From positions 1 to 64,000 of the forward strand of contig NZ_JAMHGA010000012.1 in the NCBI RefSeq assembly GCF_023660105.1: DNA of 64,000 bases. The letters are read 5' to 3'. This DNA is from Desulfovibrio aminophilus (GTDB taxonomy: Bacteria; Desulfobacterota; Desulfovibrionia; Desulfovibrionales; Desulfovibrionaceae). A program made the position numbers and the translations under genes. The notes beneath the pieces were generated by a model. The model did no database searches. It was not told where the DNA came from and worked only from the letters and a program-made list of their open reading frames with translations. How positions within the stretch are numbered: the first letter of the stretch is position 1; every line of letters starts with the position of its first letter. Shown piece by piece: positions 42 to 48,372 of the stretch.

Positions 42-42
42 G

Positions 43-872: not shown

Positions 873-880
873 GAGGCGGC

Positions 881-1486: not shown

Positions 1487-1528
1487 CGGCCGGGGGAGTC
1501 CCGGCCCAACCACGGAGCGGGGACGACC

Positions 1529-2074
1529 ATGATCGAGATTCGCATTCACGGCAGGGGTGGACAGGGCGGCGTGACCTCGGCGGAACTGCTGGCCCGGGCG
1601 GCCATCGCCGACGGGCGTTTCGCCCAGGCCTTCCCGAGCTTCGGGCCCGAGCGGCGCGGCGCGCCGGTGCAGGCCTTCGTGCGCGTGGACGGCAAGAAGA
1701 TCCGCCTGCGCGAGAAAATCTACGAGCCGGACTTGGTCCTGATCCTGGACCCCACGCTCCTGGACATCGTGAACGTGGCCGAGGGGCTCAAGGAGGGCGG
1801 CATGGTCGTGGTCAACTCGGCCCAATCCGCCGACGAGCTCAAGCGCAAGTACGGCTGGCCCAAGGCCGCCTGCGTGGACGCGGGCAAGGTGGCCCTGGAG
1901 GAGCTGGGCGTGCCGATCACCAACACGACCATGCTCGGGGCCCTGCTCAAGGCCTCCGGGCTCCTGGGCGTGGACGGCATGCGCGAGGTCATCGACGAGC
2001 GCTTCGGCCCCAAGCTGGGACCCAAGAACTACAAGGCCCTGGAGCGCGCCTTCCGGGAGACCGCCGTCGCCTAG
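1529..2074 (+). CDS. 2-oxoacid:ferredoxin oxidoreductase, stand-alone gamma subunit
   Basis: A 181-residue protein starting ATG 1529. The N-terminal IRIHGRGGQGGVTSAELLARAA is the classic gamma-subunit nucleotide-binding turn of pyruvate/2-oxoacid ferredoxin oxidoreductases. FPSFGPERRGAPVQAFVR and TTMLGALLKASG are further family signatures. In the four-subunit enzymes this subunit joins alpha, beta and a ferredoxin-like delta in coenzyme A-dependent 2-oxoacid oxidation. No alpha, beta or delta gene is adjacent: upstream is recR and downstream, after a hairpin, is recD2. The korAB pair at 5500-8059 already carries its own fused gamma domain, so the partner of this subunit is unknown. Confidence 0.88.
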   Translation: MIEIRIHGRGGQGGVTSAELLARAAIADGRFAQAFPSFGPERRGAPVQAFVRVDGKKIRLREKIYEPDLVLILDPTLLDIVNVAEGLKEGGMVVVNSAQSADELKRKYGWPKAACVDAGKVALEELGVPITNTTMLGALLKASGLLGVDGMREVIDERFGPKLGPKNYKALERAFRETAVA

Positions 2075-2097
2075 CCAAACGCGGCGATGATTGCTAC

Positions 2098-2124
2098 AAG
2101 GGGCCGGTCGACCGGCCCTTTTTC
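2098..2124 (+). terminator. Hairpin with T-tract between gamma subunit and recD2
   Basis: GGCCGGTCGACCGGCC forms a self-complementary stem, extended by A-T/G-T pairs, and is followed by TTTTTC. This is a plausible Rho-independent terminator for the gamma-subunit gene. It ends only 18 bases before the recD2 GTG, so it may also act as an attenuator for recD2 if no promoter lies downstream. Confidence 0.7.
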
Positions 2125-2141
2125 ATTTCCCGAGGAACTTC

Positions 2142-4337
2142 GTGCCCGAAACCATCACCGTCGAAATCCATACCGTCGTCTTCTCCAACCCGGACAACGG
2201 CTACACCGTGGCCCGGGGCCGCTGCAAGGACGAGCCCGGCCTGACCACCATCGTCGGCTGTCTGGGCCGCCCCTCCCCGGGTGAGTCCCTGATCCTCACC
2301 GGAGAGTGGAAGTTCCATCCGCGCTTCGGCCGCCAGTTCGAGGTCCAGACCTTCGAGCAGGGCCGCCCTGCCACGGAGAACGGCGTGATCCGCTTCCTGG
2401 CCTCGGCCGCGATCAAGAACGTGGGCCCCAAGCTGGCCGAGCGCATGGTGGCCAAGTTCGGCATGGAGGTCCTGGACATCCTCGACGAGGAGCCCGAGAA
2501 GCTCCTGGAGGTGCGCGGCATCTCCAAGAAGAAGCTGGTGGACATCGTGGATTCCTGGAGCCGCCAGCGGGAGATCAAGAACCTCATCGTCTTTCTGCAC
2601 AGCCACGAGGTCCCGCCCACCTTCGCCCCGCGCATCTTCCAGCTCTGGGGCGCGCAGGCCGTGGCCAAGCTGCGCGAGAATCCCTACGAGCTGGCCTACG
2701 AGATCAGGGGCGTTGGCTTCAAGACCGCCGACAACATGGCCCTCAAGCTGGGCTTCGCCCCGGACGCGCCCGCGCGCCTGGAGGCCGCCGTGGTCTATGC
2801 CCTGTTCTCCCTGAGCGAGCGGGCCGGGCACCTCTTCTGCCCCAAGGACAAGCTCTTCGAGGAAGTCTCGCGCATGCTCGGCGGCGGCCTGGACCCCCAG
2901 GCCCTGGACGACGCCCTGGCCGCCCTGGAGGAGAAGAAGCGGGTCCGGGTGGAGCCCCTGCCCGAGCTGGAGATCGACGACGCCGTCTACCTCCAGCACT
3001 TCTGGAAATGGGAGCGCGAGACCGCCCAGCGCCTCTTCGGCCTGGCCGCCCACCCCACGCCCGTGAGCCGGGGCAAGGTGGAGGCCACCCTGCCCAAGGT
3101 GGAGAAGGTGGTGGGCATCGAGCTGACTCCAGAGCAGCGCGAGGCCGTGTTCGGGGCCTGCGTGAACAAGTCCTTCATCATCACCGGCGGGCCGGGCACG
3201 GGCAAGACCACCATCACCCGGGCCGTGGTGGCCACGCTCAAGGAGCTGGGCCTGAAGATCAAGCTGGCCGCGCCCACGGGCCGCGCCGCCAAGCGCATGA
3301 CCGAGGCCACGGGCTTCCCGGCCCAGACCGTGCACCGCATGCTCCAGTATCAGCCCGACGGCTCGTTCCACTACTGCGAGGAGCAGAAGCTCAAGGCCGA
3401 CGTGCTCGTGGTGGACGAGGCCTCCATGCTCGACGCCCAGCTCTTCCTCTCCGTGCTGCGGGCCCTGCCCCTGACCTGCCGCCTCGTCCTGGTGGGCGAC
3501 GTGAACCAGCTCCCCTCGGTGGGGCCCGGCAACGTGCTGGGCGACCTGCTGGAGAGCGGGGCCGTGCCCTCGGCCGTGCTCACGCACATCTTCCGCCAGG
3601 CCCTGGAGAGCTGCATCATCCGCAACGCCCACAGGATCAACGCCGGACAGTTCCCGGTGCTCGACCCGCGCAACGCGCCCGAGGCCGACTTCTTCTGGGT
3701 CGTGCAGGAGGACCCGCAGCGGGTCCAGGGCATCATCCTGGAGACGGTCTGCCAGCGCATTCCCGAGCGCTACGGCCTGGACCCCCTGCGTGAGGTCCAG
3801 GTGCTCACGCCCATGCACAAGGGCGAAGTGGGCACCCAGGCCCTCAACGAGGTGCTCCAGGACCGCCTGAATCCCCGCCTGGGCCCGGAGATCAAGCGCG
3901 GCAACTGCCGCTTCCGGGTCGGCGACCGGGTTCTGCAGCTGCGCAACAACTATGACAAGGACGTGTTCAACGGCGACCTGGGTTGGATTCTTGATCTGGA
4001 CCCGGAGGAGGGCTCCCTGGTGGTGGACTTCGAGGGCGACGCCGTGCCCTATGAGTCCTCGGAGCTGGACGACCTGGCCCTGGCCTACGCCGTGAGCGTG
4101 CACAAGTCCCAGGGCAGCGAGTACCCGGCCGTGGTCATGCCCGTGGTCACCCAGCACTATCTCCTGCTCCAGCGCAACCTGCTCTACACCGGCCTGACCC
4201 GGGCGCGGCGTCTGGCCGTGCTGGTGGGCAGCGAACGGGCCCTGCGCATCGGCCTGAACAACGTCACCGCGGGCCGCCGCCAGACCTATCTGCGCCACCG
4301 CCTGCGCGAGGTCTTCGCCAACAGCCTCCTGGCTTGA
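2142..4337 (+). CDS. recD2: RecD2-type ATP-dependent 5'-3' DNA helicase
   Basis: A 731-residue superfamily 1B helicase. GTG 2142 is chosen because CGAGGAA lies 5-11 bases upstream; the frame could open 51 bases earlier, but only inside the terminator hairpin. Residues ~1-75 form an OB-like N-terminus and ~80-200 the helix-hairpin-helix region (VGPKLAERMV, GVGFKTADNMA) typical of RecD2 rather than RecD. Walker A GGPGTGKT is at ~349-356 and Walker B VVDEASM near 425. The C-terminal SH3-like and helicase motif (AVSVHKSQGSEYPAVV, TGLTRARRL) is intact. RecD2 acts without RecB/RecC in DNA repair; no recB or recC gene is present here. Confidence 0.95.
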   Translation: MPETITVEIHTVVFSNPDNGYTVARGRCKDEPGLTTIVGCLGRPSPGESLILTGEWKFHPRFGRQFEVQTFEQGRPATENGVIRFLASAAIKNVGPKLAERMVAKFGMEVLDILDEEPEKLLEVRGISKKKLVDIVDSWSRQREIKNLIVFLHSHEVPPTFAPRIFQLWGAQAVAKLRENPYELAYEIRGVGFKTADNMALKLGFAPDAPARLEAAVVYALFSLSERAGHLFCPKDKLFEEVSRMLGGGLDPQALDDALAALEEKKRVRVEPLPELEIDDAVYLQHFWKWERETAQRLFGLAAHPTPVSRGKVEATLPKVEKVVGIELTPEQREAVFGACVNKSFIITGGPGTGKTTITRAVVATLKELGLKIKLAAPTGRAAKRMTEATGFPAQTVHRMLQYQPDGSFHYCEEQKLKADVLVVDEASMLDAQLFLSVLRALPLTCRLVLVGDVNQLPSVGPGNVLGDLLESGAVPSAVLTHIFRQALESCIIRNAHRINAGQFPVLDPRNAPEADFFWVVQEDPQRVQGIILETVCQRIPERYGLDPLREVQVLTPMHKGEVGTQALNEVLQDRLNPRLGPEIKRGNCRFRVGDRVLQLRNNYDKDVFNGDLGWILDLDPEEGSLVVDFEGDAVPYESSELDDLALAYAVSVHKSQGSEYPAVVMPVVTQHYLLLQRNLLYTGLTRARRLAVLVGSERALRIGLNNVTAGRRQTYLRHRLREVFANSLLA

Positions 4338-4382
4338 CGCTCGCGGCGCGGGCCGATTTTTTCTTCCCAAGCGGGGGCATTT

Positions 4383-4391
4383 TGCTACTAT
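4383..4391 (+). promoter_or_regulatory. Possible extended -10 promoter for the ferritin operon
   Basis: TGCTACTAT is an extended -10-like element (TG-N-TACTAT) about 33 bases before the ferritin ATG, in an AT-richer patch. The matching -35 (CTTCCC, 17-base spacer) is poor. No clear Fur or PerR box is seen. The prediction is from pattern alone. Confidence 0.3.
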
Positions 4392-4424
4392 GGGGCCAAC
4401 GCACCCATACAAGGAGAATCCCCC

Positions 4425-4931
4425 ATGCTCGGCAAGAAGATGGAAAAAGCCCTCAACGACCAGATCACCTGGGAGTTCTATTCCGGCTACGTCTACCTCT
4501 CCATGTCCGCCTGGTTCCAGTCCCAGGGCCTGCCCGGCTTCGCCAACTGGATGGAGGTCCAGAACCAGGAGGAGGTCTTTCACGCCACCAAGATGTTCCG
4601 CTACGTCCTGGAATCCGGCGGCACGGTGGAACTGGGCGCCATCGCCAAGCCCAAGGCCGCCTGGAAGAAGCCCCTGGACGCCTTCCAGGACGCCCTGGCC
4701 CACGAGCAGGGCGTGACCGCCAGGATCAACGCCCTGGTGGACCTGGCCCAGAAGGAGAAGGACCACGCCACGAACAACTTCCTGCAGTGGTTCGTGTCCG
4801 AGCAGGTGGAGGAGGAGGCGGGCGTCTCCGACATCATCTCCAAGCTCAAGCTGGTGGGCGATGGCGGCGCGCTGTTCATGCTGGACAAGGATTTGTCCAC
4901 ACGGGTGTTCACGCCTCCGGTAGGAGCCTAG
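4425..4931 (+). CDS. ftnA: Ferritin (non-haem, FtnA-type)
   Basis: A 168-residue ferritin starting ATG 4425, preceded by AAGGAG at 4411. The ferroxidase residues are all in the expected places: E17, E50, H53, E94, Q127, with E49/E126/E129/E130 around the third site. It is therefore expected to oxidise Fe(II) and store ferric mineral in a 24-subunit shell in the cytoplasm. It heads a run of closely spaced genes (ferritin, ferritin-like protein, korA, korB, DsrE-like). This suggests a link between iron handling and ferredoxin-dependent metabolism, although co-regulation is inferred from spacing only. Confidence 0.96.
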   Translation: MLGKKMEKALNDQITWEFYSGYVYLSMSAWFQSQGLPGFANWMEVQNQEEVFHATKMFRYVLESGGTVELGAIAKPKAAWKKPLDAFQDALAHEQGVTARINALVDLAQKEKDHATNNFLQWFVSEQVEEEAGVSDIISKLKLVGDGGALFMLDKDLSTRVFTPPVGA

Positions 4932-4963
4932 CGCCGCGACCTGGACGCGGCCGGGAGGAAGCC

Positions 4964-5485
4964 ATGAGCGACCAGTCCCAACGCATGCTCTGCAAGGCCC
5001 TGGAGCTGGCCGAGAAGAGCGCGGAGTTCTACGAAGGCAACATCGACGCCTGTCCCGACGGCCTGGGGCGGGAAGCGTTCGAGATGATCCGCGAGGCCGA
5101 GCGCGACCACCTGGAGCGGGTGAAGGAGATCCACGACGCCGTGACCGGGGGCGCGGCCTGGGACTCGGCTTGCGTCCTGGACGAGGCCGACGAGGAGGAC
5201 GCCCTGTCCGTGTTCCGGGGCATCGCGGCCCAGTACGAGACCGACGATTCCTGCTCCACCGAGGTGGAGGCGCTGAACATGGCCCTGGACCTCAAGCTGG
5301 CTCTGGTGACCTTCTACGAGGAGTGGCTGGAGGAGGCCGAGGACGAGATCGAGCGCGAGTTCGTCGAGCGCATGGTCCAGGAGCAGCGCGGCCACTACAT
5401 CGTGCTCTCCGACCTCCAGTACTACTACGAGGACCCCGAGGGCTGGGCCCTGGACCAGGGCGGCGGCTCCCTCGACGGGGTCTAG
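4964..5485 (+). CDS. Ferritin-like/rubrerythrin-family protein with incomplete diiron site
   Basis: A 173-residue acidic helical protein from ATG 4964 (GGGAGGA upstream). It has the four-helix ferritin-like plan: a first helix with ELAEKSAEFYEG, a second with EAERDHL (ExxH) and a long third/fourth pair ending in the rubrerythrin-like DPEGW. Helix 3 reads ALDLKLALVTFY, without the usual glutamate. Helix 4 reads QEQRGH, with Gln where the ExxH glutamate normally sits. The diiron centre therefore looks partly lost. There is no rubredoxin domain. It may be a structural or single-metal relative of rubrerythrin; function unknown. Confidence 0.75.
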   Translation: MSDQSQRMLCKALELAEKSAEFYEGNIDACPDGLGREAFEMIREAERDHLERVKEIHDAVTGGAAWDSACVLDEADEEDALSVFRGIAAQYETDDSCSTEVEALNMALDLKLALVTFYEEWLEEAEDEIEREFVERMVQEQRGHYIVLSDLQYYYEDPEGWALDQGGGSLDGV

Positions 5486-5499
5486 GGCCGGGAGGCGTC

Positions 5500-7197
5500 A
5501 TGAACGGACCGGACATCAACATCGTCATCGGCGGCGAAGCCGGGCAGGGGCTGGTGACGGTCGGCGACACCCTGTCCCGGGCCCTGACCCGCGCCGGATA
5601 CGAGATCGTCGTCACCCAGGACTACATGTCCCGCATCCGGGGCGGCCACAACACCTTCGCCATCCGCACCGGGCCGGACCCGGTGTCGGCCCCCACGGTG
5701 GACATCGACATCCTGGTGGCCCTGGACCAGGAGAGCGTGGACCTGCACGCCGGGCAGCTCACGGCCCGGGGGCTCATCGTGGCCGGGGACGACCTCCGGC
5801 TGCCCGACGCGCCCTGCCTGCGGGTGCCCTATCGCCGCCTGGCCCCCAAGCCGCTCTACGACAACGTGGCGGCCTTGGGCGTGCTCGGCTCGGCCGTCTG
5901 CAACGACCTGTCCATCCTGGAGCGGCTCGTGTCCGAGGCCTTCGAGAAGAAGGGCCCGGAGGTGGTCGAGGCCAACCTCTCCGTGCTCCGGGCGGCTTAC
6001 GCCTGGGTCAGGGAGCAGGAGCACCCCTTCGCCTGCATGCCGCCCGCGCCGGCCGACGCGGGCCCCCGGATCATGCTCAACGGCAACGAGGCCATCGCCC
6101 TGGGCGCGCTGGCCGGAGGCTGCGACTTCCTGTCCTTCTATCCCATGACCCCGGGCACCTCCGTGGCCCTGGCCCTCATCGACAAGGGCCGCGAGACCGG
6201 GCTGGTGGCCGAGCAGGCCGAGGACGAGATCGCGGCCGTGAACATGGCCCTGGGCGCGGCCTATGCCGGGGCCCGGGCCATCGTCTCCACCTCGGGCGGC
6301 GGCTTCGCCCTCATGTGCGAGGGCGTGAGCCTGGCGGGCATGCTCGAACTGCCCGTGGTCATCGTGGTGGCCCAGCGTCCCGGCCCGGCCACGGGCCTGC
6401 CCACCCGCAGCGAGCAGGCCGACCTGAACCTCGTGCTCTACGCCGGGCACGGCGAGTTTCCCCGGGCCGTGTTCGCCCCCGGCGGGGTGGAGGACTGCTT
6501 CTACCTGACCCACCGGGCCTTCGAGCTGGCCGAGCGCTACCAGTCCCCGGCCTTCGTGCTCACGGACCAGTTCCTGGCCGATTCCTACCGCTCCGTGGCC
6601 CCCTTCGACCTGGACGCCCTGCCCGAGCCGCCGGAACACCTGCTTCGGCCGGAGGAGGGCCGGGCCTACAAGCGCTACCGGATCACCGAGGACGGGGTGT
6701 CGCCCCGGGCCATTCCCGGGTTCTCCGAGGCCCTGGTGGTCTCGGACTCCGACGAGCACACCGAGGACGGCAAGCTCACCGAGGACCTGTCCGTGCGCAC
6801 GGCCATGCAGGACAAGCGCTTGCGCAAGGGTTACGGGCTCATCGAGGAGGCCGTGCCGCCGGACTACTACGGCCCGGACCGGCCCGACCTCCTGTTGGTC
6901 TGCTGGGGCTCGACCCTGGGCGCGGCCCTGGAGACCCTCCGGCGCCTGGAGGGGCGCCGGACCCGCGCGGCGGTCCTGCACTTCCGGCAGGTCTGGCCGC
7001 TCAACGGACGGCAGTTCCTGCCCTTCCTGGAGGAGGCCGCTCGGGTGGTCATGGTGGAGGGCAACTCCACTGGCCAGCTGGCGGCCCTCATCCGCCAGGA
7101 GACCGGCTTTCTCATCGACAACCTGATCCTGCGCTACGACGGCCTGCCCTTCACCGCCGCCTTCATCCTGGCCGGTCTGGGCTCGCTGGACGCCTGA
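5500..7197 (+). CDS. korA: 2-oxoacid:acceptor oxidoreductase subunit alpha (KorA), gamma-alpha fusion
   Basis: A 565-residue protein from ATG 5500 (GGAGG at 5491). Residues ~1-175 are a gamma-type domain (IVIGGEAGQGLVTVGDTL, SRIRGGHNTF). Residues ~190-565 are the alpha subunit with FYPMTPGTSVALAL, EQAEDEIAAVNMALGAAYAGARA and TSGGGFALMCEGVSLA. This gamma-alpha order is the KorA architecture of 2-oxoglutarate/2-oxoacid:ferredoxin oxidoreductases, which decarboxylate a 2-oxoacid with CoA and reduce ferredoxin. The beta subunit follows after 10 bases. The exact 2-oxoacid cannot be read from sequence. The enzyme is oxygen-sensitive in known members, in keeping with an anaerobe. Confidence 0.93.
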   Translation: MNGPDINIVIGGEAGQGLVTVGDTLSRALTRAGYEIVVTQDYMSRIRGGHNTFAIRTGPDPVSAPTVDIDILVALDQESVDLHAGQLTARGLIVAGDDLRLPDAPCLRVPYRRLAPKPLYDNVAALGVLGSAVCNDLSILERLVSEAFEKKGPEVVEANLSVLRAAYAWVREQEHPFACMPPAPADAGPRIMLNGNEAIALGALAGGCDFLSFYPMTPGTSVALALIDKGRETGLVAEQAEDEIAAVNMALGAAYAGARAIVSTSGGGFALMCEGVSLAGMLELPVVIVVAQRPGPATGLPTRSEQADLNLVLYAGHGEFPRAVFAPGGVEDCFYLTHRAFELAERYQSPAFVLTDQFLADSYRSVAPFDLDALPEPPEHLLRPEEGRAYKRYRITEDGVSPRAIPGFSEALVVSDSDEHTEDGKLTEDLSVRTAMQDKRLRKGYGLIEEAVPPDYYGPDRPDLLLVCWGSTLGAALETLRRLEGRRTRAAVLHFRQVWPLNGRQFLPFLEEAARVVMVEGNSTGQLAALIRQETGFLIDNLILRYDGLPFTAAFILAGLGSLDA

Positions 7198-7207
7198 GGA
7201 GTCCGTC

Positions 7208-8059
7208 ATGGTCGGCATGGAAGACTACGGACAGTTCGAGACGGCCTGGTGCCCGGGCTGCGGCAACCACGCCATTCTCAAGGCCGTGAAAAAGGCCTTG
7301 GCCGGGCTGGGGCTCGCGCCCCACGAGGTCCTGCTGGTCACGGGCATCGGCCAGGCGGCCAAGGCCCCGCTGTACATGAACTGCAACATGTTCACCGGAC
7401 TGCACGGCCGGTCGCTGCCGGCGGCCACGGGCGCGCGCCTGGCCAATCCCGGGCTGACCGTCATCGCCGAGAGCGGCGACGGGTGCAGCTACGGCGAGGG
7501 CGGCAACCACTTCCTGGCGGCCTTGCGGCGCAACGTGAACATCACGCTCCTGGCCCACGACAACCAGGTCTACGGCCTGACCAAGGGCCAGGCCAGCCCG
7601 ACCACCATGCAGGGCATGAAGACCAAGGCCCAGCCCTTCGGCCAGCCCTCCCTGGCCTTCAATCCCGTGGCCGTGGCCGCGGCCATGCGCGCCGGTTTCG
7701 TGGCCCGGGGCTTCTCCGGAGAGATCGAGCACCTGGCCGGACTCATCCAGGAGGCCGTGCGCCATCCGGGCTTCGCCCTGGTGGACATCCTCCAGCCCTG
7801 CGTCTCGTTCAACAAGCTGAACACCTTTTCCTGGTACAAGGAGCGGGTCTACAGGCTCGGCCCGGAGCACGATCCCACGGATTTCGCCCAGGCCATGAGC
7901 AAGGCCCAGGAGTTCGGGGAGCGCATCCCCATCGGCGTGATCGCGCGCAACGACCGGCCCCCGTTCGAGGCGGGCGTGCCCGGGCTGGCCCGTGGGCCGC
8001 TGGCCGCCCGGAGCCTGGACCGGGACGCGCTGCGCCGGATCGTGGAGTCCTATGCCTGA
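7208..8059 (+). CDS. korB: 2-oxoacid:ferredoxin oxidoreductase subunit beta (KorB)
   Basis: A 283-residue TPP-binding beta subunit starting ATG 7208. WCPGCGNHAIL (C15, C18) begins the set of cluster cysteines. The thiamine-diphosphate motif runs from GDG at 90-92 to DNQVYGLTKGQ near 118-128. CVSFNKLNTFSWYKERVYRL is a KorB signature. It forms the catalytic core with KorA, passing electrons through a [4Fe-4S] cluster to ferredoxin. The downstream DsrE-like gene begins just 13 bases after its stop. Confidence 0.94.
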   Translation: MVGMEDYGQFETAWCPGCGNHAILKAVKKALAGLGLAPHEVLLVTGIGQAAKAPLYMNCNMFTGLHGRSLPAATGARLANPGLTVIAESGDGCSYGEGGNHFLAALRRNVNITLLAHDNQVYGLTKGQASPTTMQGMKTKAQPFGQPSLAFNPVAVAAAMRAGFVARGFSGEIEHLAGLIQEAVRHPGFALVDILQPCVSFNKLNTFSWYKERVYRLGPEHDPTDFAQAMSKAQEFGERIPIGVIARNDRPPFEAGVPGLARGPLAARSLDRDALRRIVESYA

Positions 8060-8072
8060 GGAGGTGAACGCG

Positions 8073-8420
8073 ATGTCGAAGGTTCTGCTGGCCGCGTTTC
8101 GCGGCGACCTGCTCTGTTTCGTGCACGTGCTGCTGAACGCCCTGGATCTGAAGGAGCGCGGCGTCGAGGCGCGCATCCTGTTCGAGGGCGCATCCGTGAC
8201 CCTGGTGGCCCCCCTGGCCGATCCCTCGGGGAATTTTCACACGCTCTACGCCAAGGCCAAGACCGCCGGGCTCATCGAGGGCGCGTGCCGGGCCTGCTCG
8301 GCCAAGCTCGGGGCCCTGGAGGCGGTGCAGGCCGAGGGCCTGGCCCTGCTGGGCGAGATGAACGGCCATCCGGCCCTGGGCCGTTACCTGGCCGATGGCT
8401 ACACCATCCTGACCTTCTAG
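8073..8420 (+). CDS. DsrE-like small cytoplasmic protein
   Basis: A 115-residue protein from ATG 8073. An in-frame ATG at 8052 overlaps korB, but GAGGAGG at 8059-8065 favours 8073. It has the alternating beta/alpha pattern of the DsrE/DsrF-like fold (KVLLAAFRGDLLCFVHVLLNALDLKERG, then VEARILFEGASV) and a CRACSAK motif near residue 73. Some relatives handle sulfur or are of unknown function; no specific reaction is claimed. It closes the ferritin-korAB unit before a strong terminator. Confidence 0.7.
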   Translation: MSKVLLAAFRGDLLCFVHVLLNALDLKERGVEARILFEGASVTLVAPLADPSGNFHTLYAKAKTAGLIEGACRACSAKLGALEAVQAEGLALLGEMNGHPALGRYLADGYTILTF

Positions 8421-8443
8421 CCCGGGCTTTCCCCGGGAGAAAC

Positions 8444-8468
8444 GGGCGGCTTTCGGGCCGCCTTTTTT
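8444..8468 (+). terminator. Rho-independent terminator after korAB operon
   Basis: GGCGGC and GCCGCC form a 6-bp stem around TTTCGG, directly followed by six T. It ends the ferritin-korAB-DsrE unit and isolates the next gene. Confidence 0.9.
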
Positions 8469-8492
8469 GCGTTTATTTTTCTTTATTCATCT

Positions 8493-8519
8493 TAAGATCG
8501 GGCCTCCATGCGCCGATAG
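8493..8519 (+). promoter_or_regulatory. Sigma-28 (FliA)-like promoter
   Basis: TAAGATCG (8493-8500) and GCCGATAG (8512-8519) are separated by exactly 11 bases. The known FliA consensus is TAAAGTTT-N11-GCCGATAA. The -10 matches 7 of 8 positions and the -35 matches 4 of 8. It lies about 22 bases before the next ATG, the right distance for a promoter with a short leader. No good sigma-70 alternative is obvious, although the region just upstream is AT-rich. Confidence 0.55.
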
Positions 8520-8541
8520 GAAAGGAAAGCAGGAGGCAGCC

Positions 8542-9738
8542 ATGCAAATCGCCAAGCTCGGTGGACTTGTCACGCAACTGCCGACATCCATCCCCACCAT
8601 CGAGCCCTCAACCTTCGAAAACGATGTCGTGCTGTCCGGCGATACGTTGACCCTGAGCCGAGAGGCCAGGCTCCAAATGGCCTACGCCAAGGGGCAGGAT
8701 ACCGGCGCGGCCCAGGGGACCGGATTGCGTCTGGATGCGTCGCGCCAGGAGGCCGAGAACGCCAAATCCCCGGTGTGGGTCGTGCGGCAGGCCGTGAGCA
8801 AGACGGCGGACTACCTCCAGGGGCGGCTGGACGATCTCATCGGACGGCTGAACGACGGCGGCTTCGAGGGTGGCCTGGCCAAGGATATGCAGGCTCTCGC
8901 CCAGAAGATGCAGGAGGCCCAGGACCAGGATGACGGGGCCCGGGCGTTGCGGCTCTTGAAGGAGCAGGGCGGCAAACTGGCCGAAGAACTGAAGCCCGCG
9001 CTCGAAGGCCTGATGGACGACACACGTCAGTACTTCAACCAGTCTTTGACCATGTCCTTCCGCTCCCTGCGGATCATCGACCTCACGGGCAAGAGCATCG
9101 GGCAGGACCTGCTCGGCCTGGGGCGGCATCCCGACGTGGACGCCGAAACCGCCGCCGCCCTGGTGGAGAAGTACGATTTCATCCCCGAATCCTCCAAGCT
9201 GAACAAATACGCGGCCGGGGATGGCGTGCTCTACGAGTCGCAGGACGACCCCACGCTCAGGAACCTGTTCGACTCCATCCAGGCCTCCTTCAGCGAGACG
9301 CTGGACGACTTCTTCGGCGACCCGAACGAACTGGCGGTGAGCCTGGACCAGGGCTTCATGGACCAGGCCCAGGCGAGCTTCTTCAAGGAGCGCCGCGACG
9401 GCGACCCGGACATGGCCCAGGCCCTCGGCTCCGGCCTGGAATCCCTGCTTGATCGCCTGAGCGGCGACGCCGGGGTGAAGGGCCTCAAGGAGAGCATGGA
9501 CGAGCAGGTGAAGCGGGCCGTGGAGAACTTCAAGCCCAAGAAGGGATTCCTGACCACGGTGTCCGTCACCGCGGACATGGACGATCAGACCGCCGAGGCG
9601 GCCAAGACCCTCGACGCGTTGCGGGAGATCGTGGCCCGGGCCAAGGCCGAGCGCGAGGCCGCCGAACAGGATGCCCTGGACGCCTCGGCCGCCGCCTCCG
9701 CGGAGACGGGCGCGGCCCCGGTGGACATCATGGTCTGA
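8542..9738 (+). CDS. Unrecognised cysteine-free helical protein, possibly motility-related
   Basis: A 398-residue protein from ATG 8542 with AGGAGG at 8531-8536. I do not recognise the family. It contains no cysteine, no signal peptide and no membrane segment. It is acidic and mostly helical, with heptad-like stretches at ~95-165 and ~330-385 and an Ala-rich tail ending APVDIMV. A disordered-looking N-terminus (residues ~1-45) precedes the helices. It stands alone between two terminators behind a sigma-28-like promoter. Absence of cysteine and a flexible N-terminus are common in flagellar-exported proteins, so a motility role is a reasonable inference, but nothing in the sequence proves it. 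Confidence 0.85.
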   Translation: MQIAKLGGLVTQLPTSIPTIEPSTFENDVVLSGDTLTLSREARLQMAYAKGQDTGAAQGTGLRLDASRQEAENAKSPVWVVRQAVSKTADYLQGRLDDLIGRLNDGGFEGGLAKDMQALAQKMQEAQDQDDGARALRLLKEQGGKLAEELKPALEGLMDDTRQYFNQSLTMSFRSLRIIDLTGKSIGQDLLGLGRHPDVDAETAAALVEKYDFIPESSKLNKYAAGDGVLYESQDDPTLRNLFDSIQASFSETLDDFFGDPNELAVSLDQGFMDQAQASFFKERRDGDPDMAQALGSGLESLLDRLSGDAGVKGLKESMDEQVKRAVENFKPKKGFLTTVSVTADMDDQTAEAAKTLDALREIVARAKAEREAAEQDALDASAAASAETGAAPVDIMV

Positions 9739-9765
9739 GCGGAGCCCGGATGCGCGATCATGACG

Positions 9766-9790
9766 GGGCGGCCTGCGGGCCGCCCTTTTT
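9766..9790 (+). terminator. Rho-independent terminator
   Basis: GGGCGGCC and GGCCGCCC form an 8-bp stem with loop TGCG, followed by five T. It ends the cysteine-free protein gene. The last T is shared with the stop codon of the convergent EAL-GGDEF gene. Confidence 0.9.
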
Positions 9791-12087
9791 CATGCGCAGG
9801 CCGCGGCCTCCTCGCTGCCCAGGGGAGGGCGGCGGTCGCGGGCGAAGGAGTTGCCCGGAAAGGACTTGGCGTATTTCTTGATGTGCGCCGCGCGTTCACC
9901 GATCTCCAGCAGGGTGCACTTGCCGCCGATTTCCATGATGCCGAGGGAGATGGACACCAGGGGGAACTGGCGTTCCATGCCGTCGCGGCCCACGGCCTGG
10001 ATCCAGCCCTTCTGGCGGTCGGCCAGGCAGTAGCAGTTGCGCACCAGGCGCTTGAAGCAGCGGATCGTGCCCCGGCTGATGGCCTCGGCCGAGTCGTTGG
10101 AGCTCAGGATGACGAAGTCGTCGCCGCCGATGTGGCAGAGCCGGGCGTCGCCCGGCCCGTACTTCTTCACCGCCCAGGCCAGGATGTCGGCGGCCAGCTT
10201 GATGATCCGGTCGCCGTTCTTGAATCCGTAGGAGTCGTTGTAGACCTTGAAGTGGTCCAGGTCGGCGTAGATCAGGCTGAAGGCCTTGTTGCGGGCGATG
10301 CGGGCCTCGATCTCCTGTTCCAGGAGCACGTTGCCGGGCAGGCCGGTGAGCGGGTTGGTGCCCTTGGCCATCTCCACCTGGACCTGGGCCAGGGTGTTCA
10401 TGATTTTCTGCACCGTGACCACGCCGAAGAGTTTGCCCTTCTTGGTCACGATGACGTCGTCATAGGCCTTGAGGTGCTCGCGCTGCATGGCCTGCTTGGC
10501 CACCAGCTCCACGGCCGCGGCCTCGTCCACCACGAGCGGGTTCTCGTCCATGACCGAGTCCACCGGCCGCTTGAAGAACAGGGCCACGCCGTACTGCGAG
10601 GAGAGCTGGCGGTTGAGGTGGTACTCCATGATCAGGCCCTTGGGCGTGTCGTCGCTGGTCACCACCAGGCTGGAAAACGCACGGTTCTTTTCGAAGAAGT
10701 GCTGGGCCTCGGAGACGAGGAATTCCGGCTGGACCGCGTGCGGGGCCTCGGCCAGCTTGCCCACGGGCATGGAGCAGCTGAACGATTTCTGGGACAGGTC
10801 GCCCACCAGCCGGAGTTCGTCGGCCTCCACGGCCAGGCTGGGGCGGGGAAAGGCGGGCCGGGCCAGGAAGTAGCCCTGGCCGTAATGCACGCCGATGTCC
10901 AGGAGACAGATGGCCTGGGCCCGGGTCTCGATGCCCTCGGCGATGATCTTGGCCCCGATCTTCTCCGCGAAGGTGGTGATCGTCTCCAGCAGGGCCCGCT
11001 TCACCGGGTCGCGGTCCACGTTGTTCACCAGGGACATGTCGATCTTCATGTAGTCCGGCTGGATCTCGGCGATGGAGGAGAGGCCCGAGTAGCCCGCGCC
11101 CACGTCGTCCACGGCCACGTGGAAGCCCTGGCTGCGGTAGTGCTCCAGGGTCCGGTGGAAGAGGCCGAAGTCCTGCAGGCTGTGGCGTTCCGTGATCTCG
11201 AAGACGATGTTCCCCGGCTTCATGCCCGCCTGTTCGAGGAGCTGGAGCGTCTTGCCCGGGGTGAACTCGGGGTCGACCATGGTGCGGGGATGGATGTTCA
11301 GGAACAGCTTCTGGTCCGGGGCCAGCTCGCCCAGGTTCATGATCGCCTTTTCCCGGCAGAGTTCCTCCAGGGCGAAGAGCCGCTCCAGCTGTTCGGCCAG
11401 CTCGAAGAGCATGATCGGCGACTGGAAGGAGGAGCCCGCCGGGCCGCGCGCCAGGGCCTCCCAGCCCATGATCGTGCCCGTGGAGAAGTCCATGATGGGC
11501 TGGTAGAAGGCGCTCACGGCCTTGGAGCGCAGGAGTTCGTTGAAGCGCGCGGCGATTTCCAGGCGGGAGAGGTCCATGCGCGAGCGGGCCGAACGCCGGG
11601 CCTCGGTCACGGCCTGCAGGAAACGTTTTTCCCAGTCCCCCCGGCCGCTCGTGCCGAAGCGGGCGAAGCCGATGCCCAGCTCCACCTCGCGGCCGGTCCA
11701 TTTGAGCATGGTCCGCTTCAGCTCGTTCTGGGCCTTGATCTTCATGGCGTAGGACAGGTCGGCCAGGTTCTCGCCTTCGGCGGAGGGCCAGACCAGGAGG
11801 TATTCCCCGGACTCGGAGGTCAGGCAGTGAATGTCCTCCTCACGGGCCAGGTCCGCGCCGCAGGCCAGCAGCGAAAGCCGGAGCTGGTCCTCGATGTGGC
11901 GCACGAGGTCTTCGCCGAAGAGTTCGCTGTAGAGGTAGTGGTCCTGGATGGCGAAGAGCACCAGGCTGATGGATGGGGCGCGGCGGAGAACGCCGCCGAG
12001 GGGAGGGCGCTCCGGTTGCCGCTGGTCGTCCTTGGCCTGCCTGCCGCGCCGTGAGAGCCGCCCGGAATGAAAGATGGTCTCGAGCAT
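9790..12087 (-). CDS. EAL-CBS-GGDEF cyclic-di-GMP signalling protein
   Basis: A 765-residue protein, ATG at 12087 with GAGGCGG upstream. Residues ~165-410 are an EAL phosphodiesterase domain with WEALAR, FLNIHP, FEITER, VDDVGAGYSGLSS, PDYMKIDMSLV and AEGIET, so the c-di-GMP-hydrolysing site looks complete. Residues ~450-575 resemble a CBS pair (KGLIMEYHLNRQLSS, DVIVTKKGKLFGVVT). Residues ~580-740 are a GGDEF domain whose signature is GGDDF rather than GGDEF. The N-terminal ~150 residues contain no recognisable membrane segment. It probably acts in the cytoplasm as a phosphodiesterase, with the CBS pair sensing an adenine nucleotide (inference). The gene stands alone. Confidence 0.92.
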   Translation of the reverse strand: MLETIFHSGRLSRRGRQAKDDQRQPERPPLGGVLRRAPSISLVLFAIQDHYLYSELFGEDLVRHIEDQLRLSLLACGADLAREEDIHCLTSESGEYLLVWPSAEGENLADLSYAMKIKAQNELKRTMLKWTGREVELGIGFARFGTSGRGDWEKRFLQAVTEARRSARSRMDLSRLEIAARFNELLRSKAVSAFYQPIMDFSTGTIMGWEALARGPAGSSFQSPIMLFELAEQLERLFALEELCREKAIMNLGELAPDQKLFLNIHPRTMVDPEFTPGKTLQLLEQAGMKPGNIVFEITERHSLQDFGLFHRTLEHYRSQGFHVAVDDVGAGYSGLSSIAEIQPDYMKIDMSLVNNVDRDPVKRALLETITTFAEKIGAKIIAEGIETRAQAICLLDIGVHYGQGYFLARPAFPRPSLAVEADELRLVGDLSQKSFSCSMPVGKLAEAPHAVQPEFLVSEAQHFFEKNRAFSSLVVTSDDTPKGLIMEYHLNRQLSSQYGVALFFKRPVDSVMDENPLVVDEAAAVELVAKQAMQREHLKAYDDVIVTKKGKLFGVVTVQKIMNTLAQVQVEMAKGTNPLTGLPGNVLLEQEIEARIARNKAFSLIYADLDHFKVYNDSYGFKNGDRIIKLAADILAWAVKKYGPGDARLCHIGGDDFVILSSNDSAEAISRGTIRCFKRLVRNCYCLADRQKGWIQAVGRDGMERQFPLVSISLGIMEIGGKCTLLEIGERAAHIKKYAKSFPGNSFARDRRPPLGSEEAAACA

Positions 12088-12227
12088 GTCCGCCTCGTTG
12101 TCCTCGAAAGGTCGGCCCGGCGCGGAAAGGCCCGCGCCGCAACCGCAATTCTCCTATCCCGGGCGCGGCGAGGCGATGTGACGAAGGAGTGACGGAACGG
12201 CGTTTTTTGTGTGCCGCTTTGCGGACC

Positions 12228-12250
12228 CCCCGCCGGGAATCCCGACGGGG
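12228..12250 (-). repeat. Hairpin after the carboxyltransferase gene
   Basis: An 11-bp near-perfect inverted repeat (CCCCGTCGGGA / TCCCGGCGGGG on the minus strand, one G-T pair) lies 7-30 bases past the carboxyltransferase stop. It lacks a T-tract on that strand, so it may be a weak terminator or an mRNA 3' stabiliser. Confidence 0.45.
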
Positions 12251-12257
12251 TGGGTGT

Positions 12258-14522
12258 TTAACGGTAGTAGAGGTTGCGGCCGCCCATGGTCTGGAAGACC
12301 TGCTGGAGATTCTTGCGGATCTCGCGGCGGTCCCAGATGTCCTGGATGTGTCCCCGGGACAGGGCGCTGTGGGCGCTGTGGTAGTTGGGCGGGATGTCCA
12401 GGCCCGTGGTCTCCTTGATGACCCCGGGACCGGCGAAGCCGATGCGTGCCGAACGCACGGCGAACTGGTAGGGAGAGCAGCCCAGGAAGCTGGCCACGGG
12501 ACCGGCGTAGGAATTGGTGTCGTAGAGCACGATGTACAGGCCGCCGGCCTCGATGTAGCGCCGCACGGCCAGGGTGCAGCGGGGCATCTGGATCAGGCCG
12601 TTGAGGCCCTCCTGGATGCGGATTCCGGCCGTGCCGTGGACGTAGGCCAGGAAGGGCTGGTGCCGCTTGCGGGCCAGGGCCAGGGAGCGGATGAACTTCT
12701 CGCCCTCGGCCGCGCCCACGGAGCCGCCCCGGAAATTGGCCACCAGCATGGCGCAGGTGAGCTGGATGCCGTGGATGGCCGCCGAGAAGGTCATGCAGGC
12801 GCTCTGCATGCCGTTCTTCTCCTTGGCCTCCTGGATGCGCTGCTCGAAGCCGGGGAAACCGGTGGGGTTGCCCGCGGCGATGTTCTTGTTGAATTCGTGG
12901 ATGGAGTCCGGGTCGAAGACGTTGGCCAGGTACCACTGGTACTCCATGGGGAAGTGGTGCCCGCAGTTGGGGCAGGCCCCGCCGAACTCGCCGTAGAGGT
13001 CGCGGGCCCAGATGTCCAGGCAGCCGCGCTTGTCCGCGTGCGGGCAGCTGATCTCCCGGTCCTCCTTGGCCTTGGGCGAGAGGTAGCTGACGCAGTTCTC
13101 CACGCCCGTGGCGCAGGCCGAGGGCTCGGACAGGCTGGTCAGGGCGTCGGCCGCGGCGTGGTCGCCGGCCACGCCGAGCTTCTCCATGGTGGACTTGCGG
13201 AAGCGGCGGAACTTGTCCGTGACCACCTGGATCTCGTCGATCATGTCCTCGGTCCATTCGCCGACCTTCTTCTTGAACTTGCGGAAGAGGTCGTAGCGGA
13301 TGGCCGAGTGGGCGGAGGCCAGGAAGCCGATTCGCGCGGAGGCCATCTTTTCCAGCAGGCTGCGGTTGTCCGAGAAGGCCCGCTGGGCCATGCGGCGGTA
13401 CTTGCGGTAGCGCCGCCAGATGAGCCGTTCCTTGGCCCTGTGGGAGAGTTCCCAGCGCACGATGATGTTCTCCACGCTGGAGCCGTTGCGTCCGGCGCGC
13501 ATGGCCGCGCGGCGGAAGACGCGCATGCCGCGCACGGACAGGGCCACCTCGTCGGTGGCGCGGATGACCTCGGCGCGCAGGCGCTTGAAGAATTCGAAGT
13601 GCTCGGGCCGCGCGCCCAGGGGCGGCTCCTGCACGATGCCGTCGATGTAGCCGTTGCGCAGGTTGTCCTCGGCCGTGATCTGCTGGGAGGCGGCGCAGCG
13701 CTCGATGAGTTCGGCCGGAGCGCGCTGCCCGCCGCGCAGGCGGCCCTCGATGGCCGCAGCGCCTTCCGGCGAGATGACCGAGTAGTAGCCGTGGGAGAGC
13801 ATGAGGCGCTTGTCGGCCAGGCCGATGGCCTCGGCCCCGCCCGAGCCGCCCTCGCAGATGACCGAGACGATGGGCACGGGCAGGCCGCCCATTTCGTAGA
13901 TGTTTTCCGCGATCTGCTGGGCCGCGCCGGGGAAGTCCTCGATGGGGTAGGACCCGGGGGTGAAGACGTAGGCGTGGATCGGGATGTTCTCCCGGGCCGC
14001 GACCTTCATGTACTTGAGCGCCTTGGAGTTGCCCCAGGGCTTGATGGAGCCGCCGTTGCGGAATTCCTCGCCGTGCCCCTTCTCCTGGCCCACGACCATG
14101 ACCGGATGGTTGATGACCCGGTCGCCCACGCGGCGGCTGATGTAGGCCCGGGCGATGCACATGCCCGGGTCGATGTTCACTTCGCCCTTGCCGCCGATCT
14201 CGGTGTAGTTGTCGTAGACGTTCTCCAGGATGTCCTTGAGGCAGACATGCTGGGGGTGGCGGACGATGCGCACCTTGTCCATGGGCGAGAGCTGCTGGTC
14301 GAGGCTCTCCTCCAGGGCGGAGAGGCGCTGCTCCAGGGCGGAGGCCTGGTCGCGGAGCTCCTCGGCCGAGGTGGAGGCCGCGCGGGCCATGACCTCGTCC
14401 AGGTGCTGGGCGAAGGCCATGAGCTTCTTGTTCTGCTTCTCGCCCAGGATGTCCTGGGCGTAGCGCACCCGCTCGGTCAGTTCCTGCAGGCGCTTGTCGG
14501 TGTCCATGAACGCTGATGCCAT
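12258..14522 (-). CDS. Fused AccA-like/AccD-like acyl-CoA carboxyltransferase
   Basis: A 754-residue protein, ATG at 14522. Residues ~10-80 are predicted coiled coil. Residues ~80-300 resemble the AccA alpha subunit (EGGSGGAEAIGLADKR at ~224-239, YYSVISPEGAAAI at ~247-258). A basic linker (~300-450) follows. Residues ~490-754 resemble AccD: a zinc-type cysteine set (C493, C501, C517, C520), a TAGIRIQEGL oxyanion turn and RIGFAGPGVIKETTG. Fusion in the order alpha-beta, and a CX7C...CXXC ribbon instead of two CXXC pairs, set it apart from canonical acetyl-CoA carboxylase. It should transfer carboxyl from carboxybiotin to an acyl-CoA. It lies 13 bases downstream of the biotin carboxylase gene. 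Confidence 0.87.
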   Translation of the reverse strand: MASAFMDTDKRLQELTERVRYAQDILGEKQNKKLMAFAQHLDEVMARAASTSAEELRDQASALEQRLSALEESLDQQLSPMDKVRIVRHPQHVCLKDILENVYDNYTEIGGKGEVNIDPGMCIARAYISRRVGDRVINHPVMVVGQEKGHGEEFRNGGSIKPWGNSKALKYMKVAARENIPIHAYVFTPGSYPIEDFPGAAQQIAENIYEMGGLPVPIVSVICEGGSGGAEAIGLADKRLMLSHGYYSVISPEGAAAIEGRLRGGQRAPAELIERCAASQQITAEDNLRNGYIDGIVQEPPLGARPEHFEFFKRLRAEVIRATDEVALSVRGMRVFRRAAMRAGRNGSSVENIIVRWELSHRAKERLIWRRYRKYRRMAQRAFSDNRSLLEKMASARIGFLASAHSAIRYDLFRKFKKKVGEWTEDMIDEIQVVTDKFRRFRKSTMEKLGVAGDHAAADALTSLSEPSACATGVENCVSYLSPKAKEDREISCPHADKRGCLDIWARDLYGEFGGACPNCGHHFPMEYQWYLANVFDPDSIHEFNKNIAAGNPTGFPGFEQRIQEAKEKNGMQSACMTFSAAIHGIQLTCAMLVANFRGGSVGAAEGEKFIRSLALARKRHQPFLAYVHGTAGIRIQEGLNGLIQMPRCTLAVRRYIEAGGLYIVLYDTNSYAGPVASFLGCSPYQFAVRSARIGFAGPGVIKETTGLDIPPNYHSAHSALSRGHIQDIWDRREIRKNLQQVFQTMGGRNLYYR

Positions 14523-14535
14523 GCTCTGCGGATCC

Positions 14536-15954
14536 TTAGAACTCGAGCAGTCGCCCGGTCTTGGTCTTGAGGAAGTCGAGGTTCGACTTCATGGTCGTGC
14601 CCGCGCCGTCGATCCCTTCGAGTCGGAAGGCGTCCAGGACCGCCACGCCCCGGGCCTTGGCCTGTTCCAGGTCCTCGCCCCAGAGGATGGCCAGGGCCAG
14701 GTTGGGATCGTACTCCGTGGGAATCTGGTAGGCCGTTCCACGCGGCACGTGGCTGTGCACGGAGAGCCAGGGCTCGGCGTTCCAGTCCATGCGCTCGATG
14801 CGCCCGGCCCAGGGAGTGAAGCGGTTGGCCGTGTCCTCGGCGATGATCCGGTACTCGATGGACACGCCCTCGAAGGTGATGTCCTCCTGGCCGTAGCCCA
14901 GGGGTTCGCCCAGGCCGATGCGGATCTGCTCCCGGATGAGGTTCACCCCGTTCTTGCCCCGGACCCTCGAAATGGCCGCCGAGACGCCGTTCTCCACCTG
15001 GATGCGAGTATTCACTTCCATGAGAAAGGGTTCGCCTTTCGGGGTCACGATCCACTCCCAGGTGCCCACGTTGTCGTAGCGGATTTCGCGGGCCATGCGC
15101 AGGGAGTGGGTGGTGATGTCGTCGAGAACCTTTTCGGCGTCGAAGGAGTACTGGATACCCTGGGGGAAGAAGCCGGGGGCCACTTCGATGCGCTTCTGCA
15201 GGCCCGGGCTCTGCACCGAGCAGTTGCGGGTGCCGAAGTGCACGGGGTTGCGGCCCGAGCGGTCCGAGACCACCTGCACTTCCAGGTGGTTGAAGTTGAA
15301 GATGCGCTGCTCGATGAGCACGCCCTCGTCGTTGAAGGTGCGCGCGGCGTAGTTGCGGATGCGGCGGTAGGTCTGGCGGAAGCGGTCCATGTCGTGGACC
15401 TCGTCGATGCCCATGCCGCCGCCGCCCGCGGAAGCCTTGACGAGCACGGTGGGACGGCCCACGCCCTGGCGCTCCTGGAAGTCGAAGAGCTGGCGGGCGA
15501 TGTCCTCGGCCTCCATCTCGTCGTAGATGGCCCGATCCGAGCCCGGGATGGTGGGCACGCCGAGGCCGCGCGCCAGGCGCTTGGTGTTGATCTTGTCGCC
15601 CAGGTCCCGGATGACCCACCAGGAGGGCCCGATGAAGGCCATCGCGCGGGTGCGTTCCGTGACCCGGCGGGCGAAGCGGAAGTTCTCCGAGAAGAATCCG
15701 TAGCCGGGATGCACGGCGGTGCACTGGGCCTCGTCGCACACGGCCAGGATGTCCCCGGCGTCGATGTAGTTGTGGATGCGGTAGGCCGCGCCGTCGCCAC
15801 CCCATTGGCGGGCCAGGGCCACGTGGCCGGAGTCGGCGTCTTCGCGCGTGTACACGCAGACGAACTCGTGCCCCAGCTCGCGGCAGGCTTCCATGATGCG
15901 GATGGCGATTTCGCCTCGGTTGGCGATGAGAATTTTGTGCTTGGTTCGGCTCAC
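14536..15954 (-). CDS. Divergent biotin carboxylase-family ATP-grasp protein
   Basis: A 472-residue protein starting GTG at 15954. It has the biotin carboxylase order: N-terminal fold (KILIANRGEIAIRIMEACRELG), HPGYGFFSEN (~82-91), the ATP-grasp lysine and glycine loop (VLVKASAGGGGMGI, ~170-183) and MEVNTRIQVEN (~312-322). Several canonical residues differ. The usual ERDCSxQRRHQK motif reads TRNCSVQSPGLQK, losing the His, and NTRIQVEHPVTE reads NTRIQVENGVSA. It has no biotinyl (EAMKM-type) domain. It is expected to carboxylate a carrier-bound biotin with bicarbonate and ATP, feeding the fused carboxyltransferase that follows. The substitutions make exact activity uncertain. Confidence 0.87.
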   Translation of the reverse strand: MSRTKHKILIANRGEIAIRIMEACRELGHEFVCVYTREDADSGHVALARQWGGDGAAYRIHNYIDAGDILAVCDEAQCTAVHPGYGFFSENFRFARRVTERTRAMAFIGPSWWVIRDLGDKINTKRLARGLGVPTIPGSDRAIYDEMEAEDIARQLFDFQERQGVGRPTVLVKASAGGGGMGIDEVHDMDRFRQTYRRIRNYAARTFNDEGVLIEQRIFNFNHLEVQVVSDRSGRNPVHFGTRNCSVQSPGLQKRIEVAPGFFPQGIQYSFDAEKVLDDITTHSLRMAREIRYDNVGTWEWIVTPKGEPFLMEVNTRIQVENGVSAAISRVRGKNGVNLIREQIRIGLGEPLGYGQEDITFEGVSIEYRIIAEDTANRFTPWAGRIERMDWNAEPWLSVHSHVPRGTAYQIPTEYDPNLALAILWGEDLEQAKARGVAVLDAFRLEGIDGAGTTMKSNLDFLKTKTGRLLEF

Positions 15955-16031
15955 GTCGATGCAGATCTCCGATCAAAGATTTCCGGCACCCCAGGGATAG
16001 CCGTTCTTGGCTCGAATGGCAATAGCCCTAT

Positions 16032-16054
16032 TTTTAATGAAAATGTAATTAAAA
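16032..16054. promoter_or_regulatory. AT-rich palindrome, candidate operator
   Basis: TTTTAAT-N9-ATTAAAA is a perfect 7-bp inverted repeat within a ~50-base AT-rich patch (about 16020-16070). The patch lies in the 269-base gap between the divergently transcribed biotin carboxylase and metallophosphoesterase genes. It is about 80 bases upstream of the carboxylase GTG. The shape suits a dimeric repressor site, possibly controlling the carboxylase pair. No promoter hexamers there are convincing on either strand. Confidence 0.4.
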
Positions 16055-16223
16055 CGAAGTGTTGTAAATATGCCCCGGGAGTATTGCCGTTCCTGGATTC
16101 GCGTGCTGAAGCCTTTCGCGGCAATGCTTCCCACGTGAGGTCGCGGCTTGATGGAAATCCTTGGCCTCGGACGCGGACGATGGTAAGAGGTTCTAACGGC
16201 AACCGCAAGCCAAGGGGGAGACC

Positions 16224-17219
16224 ATGCGCCCGTCCGCCCTGTTCCGGTCCCTGTCAGCGTTTCTGCTCCTGCTGCTCCTGCTTCTGACGGCGAATCCGTC
16301 CCTGGCGCTGCGCTTCGCGGTCATTTCCGACACCCAGGGCCTGGACACGCGGCACGTGGTCAACACGCAGGTGCTGCGGGAGGTCCAGGACCGCATTCTG
16401 GAGCTGTCCCCCAGGCCGTCCTTCGTGGTGGTCACCGGCGATCTGGCCATCGTGGGCGGCGAGCCGGACGGCCGGACCCACTTCGCGGACTGGACCCAGG
16501 CCATGCGGCCCCTGGCCGAGGCCGGGATCGCGGTTTGGCCGGTGGTGGGCAACCATGACCTGTACGTCAACGGCATATTCGGCATGCAGTACCGCTGGCT
16601 CCAGGACGCCTTCATCAAGGCCTTTCCGGACGTGCCCCGCAATGGCCCCGAGGATTATGAGGGCTTGGCTTATTCCTTCGAGGACCGCGATTCCGGCTCG
16701 TTCTTCGCCGTGATCGACACCTACCATATCCCCAAGGCCATGGAGGACATCGTCTACACCCGGCGTGGACACCTGCGCGACGAGCAGCTGAACTGGCTGG
16801 ACGAGAAGCTGGCCGAGACCAAGGCCAAGCACCGCTTCGTCTTCGGCCACAATCCGGTGTTCTCGCCCCTGGACCACGAGCAGGCCTGCGCCGGGAACTG
16901 GTGCGATTTGTGGAAGATCATGAGCCGGGGCGGGGCGCGGGTCTATTTCTGCGGCCATGACCATCTCTACTCCCGCAAGGTCATCGAGGCCGGAACCCAT
17001 CCCTCGGCCGAGTCCGGCATGCTCCAGGTCATCACGCCCACGGCCGGGGGCAAGCCCACCAAGATCGACAAGCTGACCCTGGACGACTCCTGGCATCTCT
17101 GGAGCGGCCACGGCTTCGTAGTGGTGGACGTGGATGGCGACACGATCTCGGTCACGGCCTGGGGGCGCGGCCCCCACGGCTGGGAGCACATCGACGGATT
17201 CGACATCAAGTCCTACTGA
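16224..17219 (+). CDS. Exported calcineurin-like metallophosphoesterase
   Basis: A 331-residue protein from ATG 16224 (GGGGGAGA upstream). Residues 1-29 are a signal peptide with a long Leu run (FLLLLLLLLTANPSLA). The metal-binding motifs follow in order: SDTQ (~34-37), GDL (~73), GNHD (~109-112), GHNP (~210) and GHDH (~246). The first motif has Gln where many members have His (D-x-H). It is likely a periplasmic phosphohydrolase with a dinuclear metal site; the substrate cannot be inferred. The gene is monocistronic and is followed by the terminator of the opposing tRNA gene. Confidence 0.88.
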   Translation: MRPSALFRSLSAFLLLLLLLLTANPSLALRFAVISDTQGLDTRHVVNTQVLREVQDRILELSPRPSFVVVTGDLAIVGGEPDGRTHFADWTQAMRPLAEAGIAVWPVVGNHDLYVNGIFGMQYRWLQDAFIKAFPDVPRNGPEDYEGLAYSFEDRDSGSFFAVIDTYHIPKAMEDIVYTRRGHLRDEQLNWLDEKLAETKAKHRFVFGHNPVFSPLDHEQACAGNWCDLWKIMSRGGARVYFCGHDHLYSRKVIEAGTHPSAESGMLQVITPTAGGKPTKIDKLTLDDSWHLWSGHGFVVVDVDGDTISVTAWGRGPHGWEHIDGFDIKSY

Positions 17220-48348: not shown

Positions 48349-48372
48349 TATCGTTGTCTTTTCATCTGCTTC

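Follow-up and report, generated by a model that had tools for sequence, protein, structure and literature searches.

The open reading frame at 8542–9738 (plus strand, stop included) of the window, by which is meant the whole stretch of 64,000 nucleotides analysed from Desulfovibrio aminophilus, is, as judged from its reading frame and its orthologue, a real, fast-evolving gene. According to ORF reading, profile searches and the orthologue, it encodes a 398-residue cysteine-free protein of no known family, and it lies behind a FliA (sigma-28)-like element at 8493–8519. The explanation favoured here, held tentatively and as a whole at a little under an even chance, would make the gene a sigma-28-linked, genus-restricted and optional motility accessory.

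Gene, neighbourhood and distribution

The ATG at 8542 is preceded by the Shine-Dalgarno sequence AGGAGG (8531–8536, plus strand; read directly), the last four bases of which (GAGG) are kept in the orthologue. An alternative ORF with a TTG start from 8467 would add one cysteine, and this extension overlaps the promoter element. The upstream neighbours, all on the same strand, encode 2-oxoacid:acceptor oxidoreductase subunits and a small protein that matches DsrE below the threshold, and this run is closed by an intrinsic terminator at 8444–8468 (plus strand; 8-pair stem at 8444–8463 and T run). Another intrinsic terminator follows the gene at 9765–9790 (plus strand; 9-pair stem at 9765–9786 and T run; repeat D3). 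The upstream terminator is a 25-nt direct repeat of the downstream one, with 88% identity, and the count of two terminators is little above the shuffle mean of 1.3. No sigma-70-like promoter was found in 8380–9860. Given this and the terminators on both sides, the gene is probably transcribed as a single unit, set apart from the upstream run by the terminator. The downstream neighbour is convergent and encodes an EAL-CBS-GGDEF protein. The neighbourhood consists of metabolic or c-di-GMP genes, and no flagellar gene adjoins.

A second species of the genus (G001) has an orthologue of 401 residues at the collinear position, flanked by the same neighbours. The amino acid identity between the two species was 77% for the gene and 91–96% for the neighbours. 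Also the dN/dS ratio (0.20 vs 0.07–0.15 for seven neighbours) and dS (0.74 vs 0.18–0.48) were higher in the gene. The raised dS points either to a faster overall divergence of the gene or to the exchange of one copy. Faster evolution is common for accessory or exposed proteins.

The initial annotation had suggested a search for homologues, and searches gave two clear carriers among 348 genomes of the order, the own genome included. The same two were found among 288 genomes of the family, likewise two matched among 59 relatives including the own genome, and from 395 genomes drawn from the phylum only the own genome was recovered. The family search also included 13 weak matches (E 9e-4 to 0.04), six of which recurred in the order. 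They covered scattered parts of the query and lay in unrelated-looking frames (chemoreceptor-, DUF4197-, lipoprotein-like and others, read by eye), and were therefore treated as composition noise. In a genome contig collection, nine pattern stretches were found with the single protein as query and 398 with a two-row alignment, and in a viral contig collection 171; none of these was confirmed, in scans that detect only relatives keeping short peptide words. Neither were any matches found from phages and plasmids with tblastn. On the genomes sampled, the gene appears restricted to the genus, with two closely related carriers so far.

In the third member of the genus (G002, 87% complete) the neighbours are present and the gene is missing. 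This empty site consists of about 70 bases between the DsrE-like and EAL genes (L017:8253–8324) and keeps one terminator-like repeat, in comparison to the two near-identical terminators of the window. Profiles identified FliA and FlgM in this genome, and inspection by eye showed a flagellin gene with a FliA-like site before it (L040). The gene missing here is therefore probably dispensable for flagella. G006 has another gene in the equivalent gap, read by eye as an ABC-F-type ATPase, and for this reason gain and loss of the gene cannot be polarised. Recombination between the 88%-identical flanking terminators is suggested as a route of either loss or gain; similar terminators are common. The co-occurrence with flagellar genes that the initial annotation had pointed to holds in both carriers, which have FliA and FlgM, and with only two positive genomes this test has almost no power.

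The FliA-like element and its conservation

A sigma-28-like promoter with the −10 almost intact and the exact spacer had been proposed for the gene, and the element was confirmed at precisely that place. Read directly from the plus strand, TAAGATCG-N11-GCCGATAG occupies 8493–8519, with TAAGATCG at 8493–8500, the N11 at 8501–8511 and GCCGATAG at 8512–8519, and the ATG begins 22 bases 3' of it. The −10 half resembles GCCGATAA in seven of eight consensus bases, as would be expected of a regulon member, and the 11-base gap from the −35 octamer is the exact FliA spacing. The −35 half includes four of the eight bases of TAAAGTTT and has TAAG instead of TAAA in both species. The promoter reading is supported by the −10, the spacing and the retention in the orthologue, and weakened by the poor −35 half and by a score far below the FliA-type sites of the genus. 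Taken together, a FliA-like promoter appears plausible but weak.

Three sites in the window reach a consensus score of 11/16 with a −10 of 7/8. An E. coli matrix of FliA ChIP sites was built from 26 rows of Table 2 in PMC4183435, which has 52 (25 rows with a fold-above-threshold value above 4 according to our own reading, and galK at 2, included inadvertently). By this matrix the element scored 13.3 bits, which is within the range of the mapped sites, seven of the 26 scoring lower in a leave-one-out comparison. It was the third in the window, where three of 127,944 positions, itself included, reached at least 13.3 bits. The chance of such a site is about 0.002 for any one upstream stretch of 100 bp, and about 0.1 that at least one of the 52 crude calls in the window has it, so that on the window data alone the match may be coincidental.

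The matrix of the genus was constructed from 12 sites picked from pattern hits, mostly fronting motility or glycosyltransferase genes. With this matrix 6.1 bits were obtained for the element and 3.2 for the G001 site, in comparison to 25–31 for the training sites. The gap is overstated, since the training sites represent about six promoters that are independent of each other and no leave-one-out was applied in scoring them. Altogether 37 of 127,946 window positions scored at least as high as the element, and its score is not comparable to those of the genus's own FliA-type promoters. Among the sites with the pattern TAAR-N16-CCGAT in the three genus genomes, 24 of 30 had TAAA and six TAAG, and the TAAG type was not enriched. 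The counts for the pattern were close to those of a reversed control (10 vs 9 in G000, 12 vs 7 in G001 and 8 vs 7 in G002), and the pattern as such is thus hardly commoner than the control.

The comparison with G001, the sole orthologue available, showed that both half-sites are kept: TAAGA (5/5) and CCGAT (5/5) are identical, 10/10 altogether, and their spacing is equal. The homologue shares the candidate promoter. Only four of the 15 bases between these blocks are identical and 11 have changed. The site is the sole one of its type common to both species in the compared window parts (about 42–17220 and 17355–48192); the G001 stretch used for comparison and scoring has no counterpart of window 48193–64000. 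The G001 site had 7.5 bits by the E. coli matrix, a value reached by 25 of 187,946 positions in 94 kb. Retention in a second species strengthens the case for a FliA-like element. The AT-rich block upstream of the element is also conserved (17/26 identical), and as TAAGA continues this block, it may belong to another element.

That block would hold an unrecognised promoter in the main alternative, in which the gene is a lineage-restricted orphan with a non-flagellar function and the FliA-like match is coincidental. We consider this nearly as probable as the favoured explanation. It would agree with the conserved block directly upstream, the low score by the genus matrix, the lack of enrichment of TAAG-type sites, the absence of flagellar neighbours and the empty site of G002, which encodes FliA, FlgM and flagellin. 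It agrees less well with the exact spacing, the −10 of 7/8, half-sites kept across a diverged spacer and the lack of a sigma-70 match. Control of the gene by FliA is, in our judgement, somewhat on the probable side.

Composition, predicted structure and affinities of the protein

The length of 398 residues and the absence of cysteine, both given in the initial annotation, were correct, and the orthologue likewise has no cysteine. None of the 30 crude calls of at least 300 residues in the window was cysteine-free as called, and one of 30 was after the start of this gene alone had been corrected to the ATG, the other 29 crude starts being used as called. The cysteine-free state is unusual in the window. 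With a net charge of −26 the protein is acidic, and hydrophobic segments are lacking, the best 19-residue mean hydropathy being 0.69. Its N-terminus had been described as flexible, and in a model from one sequence residues 1–74 (8542–8763, plus strand) have pLDDT below 50 and look disordered. This region includes the conserved blocks LVTQLPTS and DTLTLSRE-RLQMAY and is a candidate export region. Residues 75–330 (8764–9531, plus strand) are predicted to form a bundle-like core of long helices, with a mean pLDDT of 65.5 and pTM of 0.58 when the core was modelled alone, and a mean pLDDT of 52.8 for the full-length protein, both from a single sequence. The models are best read as a soluble, acidic protein of helical build, of which roughly the first 75 residues are flexible.

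The searches agree with the earlier statement that the family was not recognised. Pfam gave no families even at E 10, including FlxA-like (PF14282), FlgM (PF04316), flagellin and other flagellar families. The best NCBIfam value, 0.026, was far below the family cut-off. No family match was found in PHROGs (best E 0.081), no match in PADLOC at E 1, none among PDB sequences (best E 0.56), and none with Foldseek against the PDB at E ≤0.001 with either the full-length or the core model. Several alpha-pore-forming toxins rank high in the Foldseek list of the full-length model, at E ≥0.016 and TM ≤0.28, and a pore-former reading was rejected because the protein has no hydrophobic segment; designed bundles also rank high in the full-length list, at E 0.016 or worse. 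The top rows of VIA-align, a designed bundle (Z 14.2, rmsd 3.5) and Mx/dynamin stalks (Z about 10–12, rmsd 4–5), were set aside as those expected for any helical bundle according to the tool's own note.

About 55 residues (about 304–361) are similar to some members of DUF4197 (PF13852), with no domain-wide match. Kinship with this family through that stretch is very improbable. Three of the 13 weak matches (L042, L043 and L051) are DUF4197-like by eye over the same query stretch, and hhalign gave a probability of 67–71% when such rows were included (taken from 3 and then from 7 of 11 DUF4197-like loci). The value was 15% for rows that had not been selected by their match (five out of eight being usable), Pfam gave no DUF4197 hit for the protein, and the similarity covers only about 55 of 398 residues and was chosen after the fact. 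No DUF4197 was found in the own genome.

The N-terminus also has a visual likeness to that of FlgM, with an M-[EQ]-I start and a D-x3-LS-x2-A motif. This likeness was discarded as near chance, being reached by 53 of 2000 shuffles in G000 and 347 of 2000 in G001. A search with residues 1–56 against the three genus genomes at E 10 did not retrieve FlgM and gave one other match (G000:C22, E 0.298), and no FlgM domain was found in the protein by Pfam.

Possible flagellar role and related loci

A FliA that scores above the TIGR02479 cut-off is encoded in the own genome, as are FlgM and flagellins. In the genus, recognisable promoters of the FliA type precede a flagellin, a motA/motB-like run (by eye) and an FlgO-domain lipoprotein. 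From the sequence data we infer FliA control and a motility role for the gene. According to the favoured explanation, a genus-restricted accessory gene would be transcribed alone and at a low to moderate level, with sigma-28 RNA polymerase as the probable enzyme, and expressed late in flagellar assembly, after the export of FlgM. The soluble, acidic and cysteine-free product is predicted to consist of some 75 flexible N-terminal residues and then long helices in a bundle. Most likely it would be an optional factor that modulates the completed flagellum or the motile state, acting inside the cell or, if the flexible N-terminus serves as a signal, after export by way of the flagellar channel. 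Flagellar export is possible, as a guess. The flexible N-terminus and the lack of cysteine would fit it, and plain coiled-coil proteins have both too; likewise the pLDDT below 50 for residues 1–74 (one sequence) and the maximum hydropathy of 0.69 are traits common to many cytoplasmic proteins. The earlier suggestion of a motility factor or flagellar-associated protein gains from the lack of a family, the retained FliA-like element and the presence of FliA and FlgM in the carriers, and loses from the weak −35 half, the score far below those of the genus's own FliA-type promoters, the absence from G002, and the lack of flagellar neighbours and of exported homologues.

Among published genes the closest kind seems to be the sigma-28-dependent accessory genes, such as flxA of E. 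coli (PMC4183435) and Fed of Campylobacter (PMC5223770). The FliA-dependent trg promoter of E. coli reads TAAG-N15-GCCGATGA, the same TAAG-N15-GCCGAT arrangement as in the window element, and trg expression falls from 108 to 4 without fliA (PMC4183435). Also flxA, ves and ynjH of E. coli have a FliA-type site before a non-structural gene, and they differ from the present gene in having ChIP peaks and partly shown FliA dependence (PMC4183435). For FlxA itself, the protein has no match in Pfam.

Production and secretion of the Campylobacter Fed proteins are sigma-28-dependent, and Fed, FspA and Cia share the idea of sigma-28-dependent proteins leaving via the flagellum (PMC5223770). The likeness to them is one of description, and host interaction is not implied for the organism of the window. 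A protein of this class, flagellar type III-exported and acting outside the flagellum, is an unlikely identity for the product: the regulatory idea is the same, the protein is cysteine-free without a hydrophobic segment and its first 74 residues are unstructured in the model, but it has no homology to exported proteins, its likeness to the FlgM N-terminus is near chance, and a cysteine-free helical protein equally fits ordinary coiled-coil proteins. Similarly improbable is the fullest form of the favoured explanation, a fast-evolving, optional sigma-28-dependent family of one genus, exported by or docked on the flagellum and gained or lost as an entire cassette between near-identical terminators.

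If the FliA dependence is true, a lineage-restricted gene would be added to the poorly mapped late-flagellar regulon of a Desulfovibrio-type bacterium, for which no FliA regulon study was recognised by title among the papers listed in searches of the open literature, and the gene would be an example of the recruitment of optional proteins to the flagellar programme. At present the case consists of a single orphan gene behind a plausible switch.

Other loci with FliA-type sites were also seen. At L025:201–529 (G000 C38) an 84-residue cysteine-free protein without a Pfam or NCBIfam family is encoded behind a strong FliA-type site, TAAAGTTTTTAAAAAAACCGCCGATAG, i.e. TAAAGTTTT-N10-GCCGATAG, and its orthologue in L033 (G001), of 93 residues, lies behind a like site. 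As judged from these sites, it appears a better-supported undescribed sigma-28 target than the 398-residue gene. Glycosyltransferase-like genes lie behind FliA-type sites at L027, L031 and L034, the first with a Pfam hit and the other two read by eye, and flagellin glycosylation is possibly under sigma-28 at these loci. Two small proteins (L020:6234–6689 and L047:1468–1869) have sub-threshold FlxA-like matches and an N-terminal D-x-V-x-I-S motif, and one of them lies near the EAL-protein homologue of G035. At the contig start, positions 1–41 of the window look like an untrimmed Nextera-type transposase adapter, which we presume them to be, and the ORF at 4–492 (VDRRQRQMCIRDR...) consequently has a false N-terminus.
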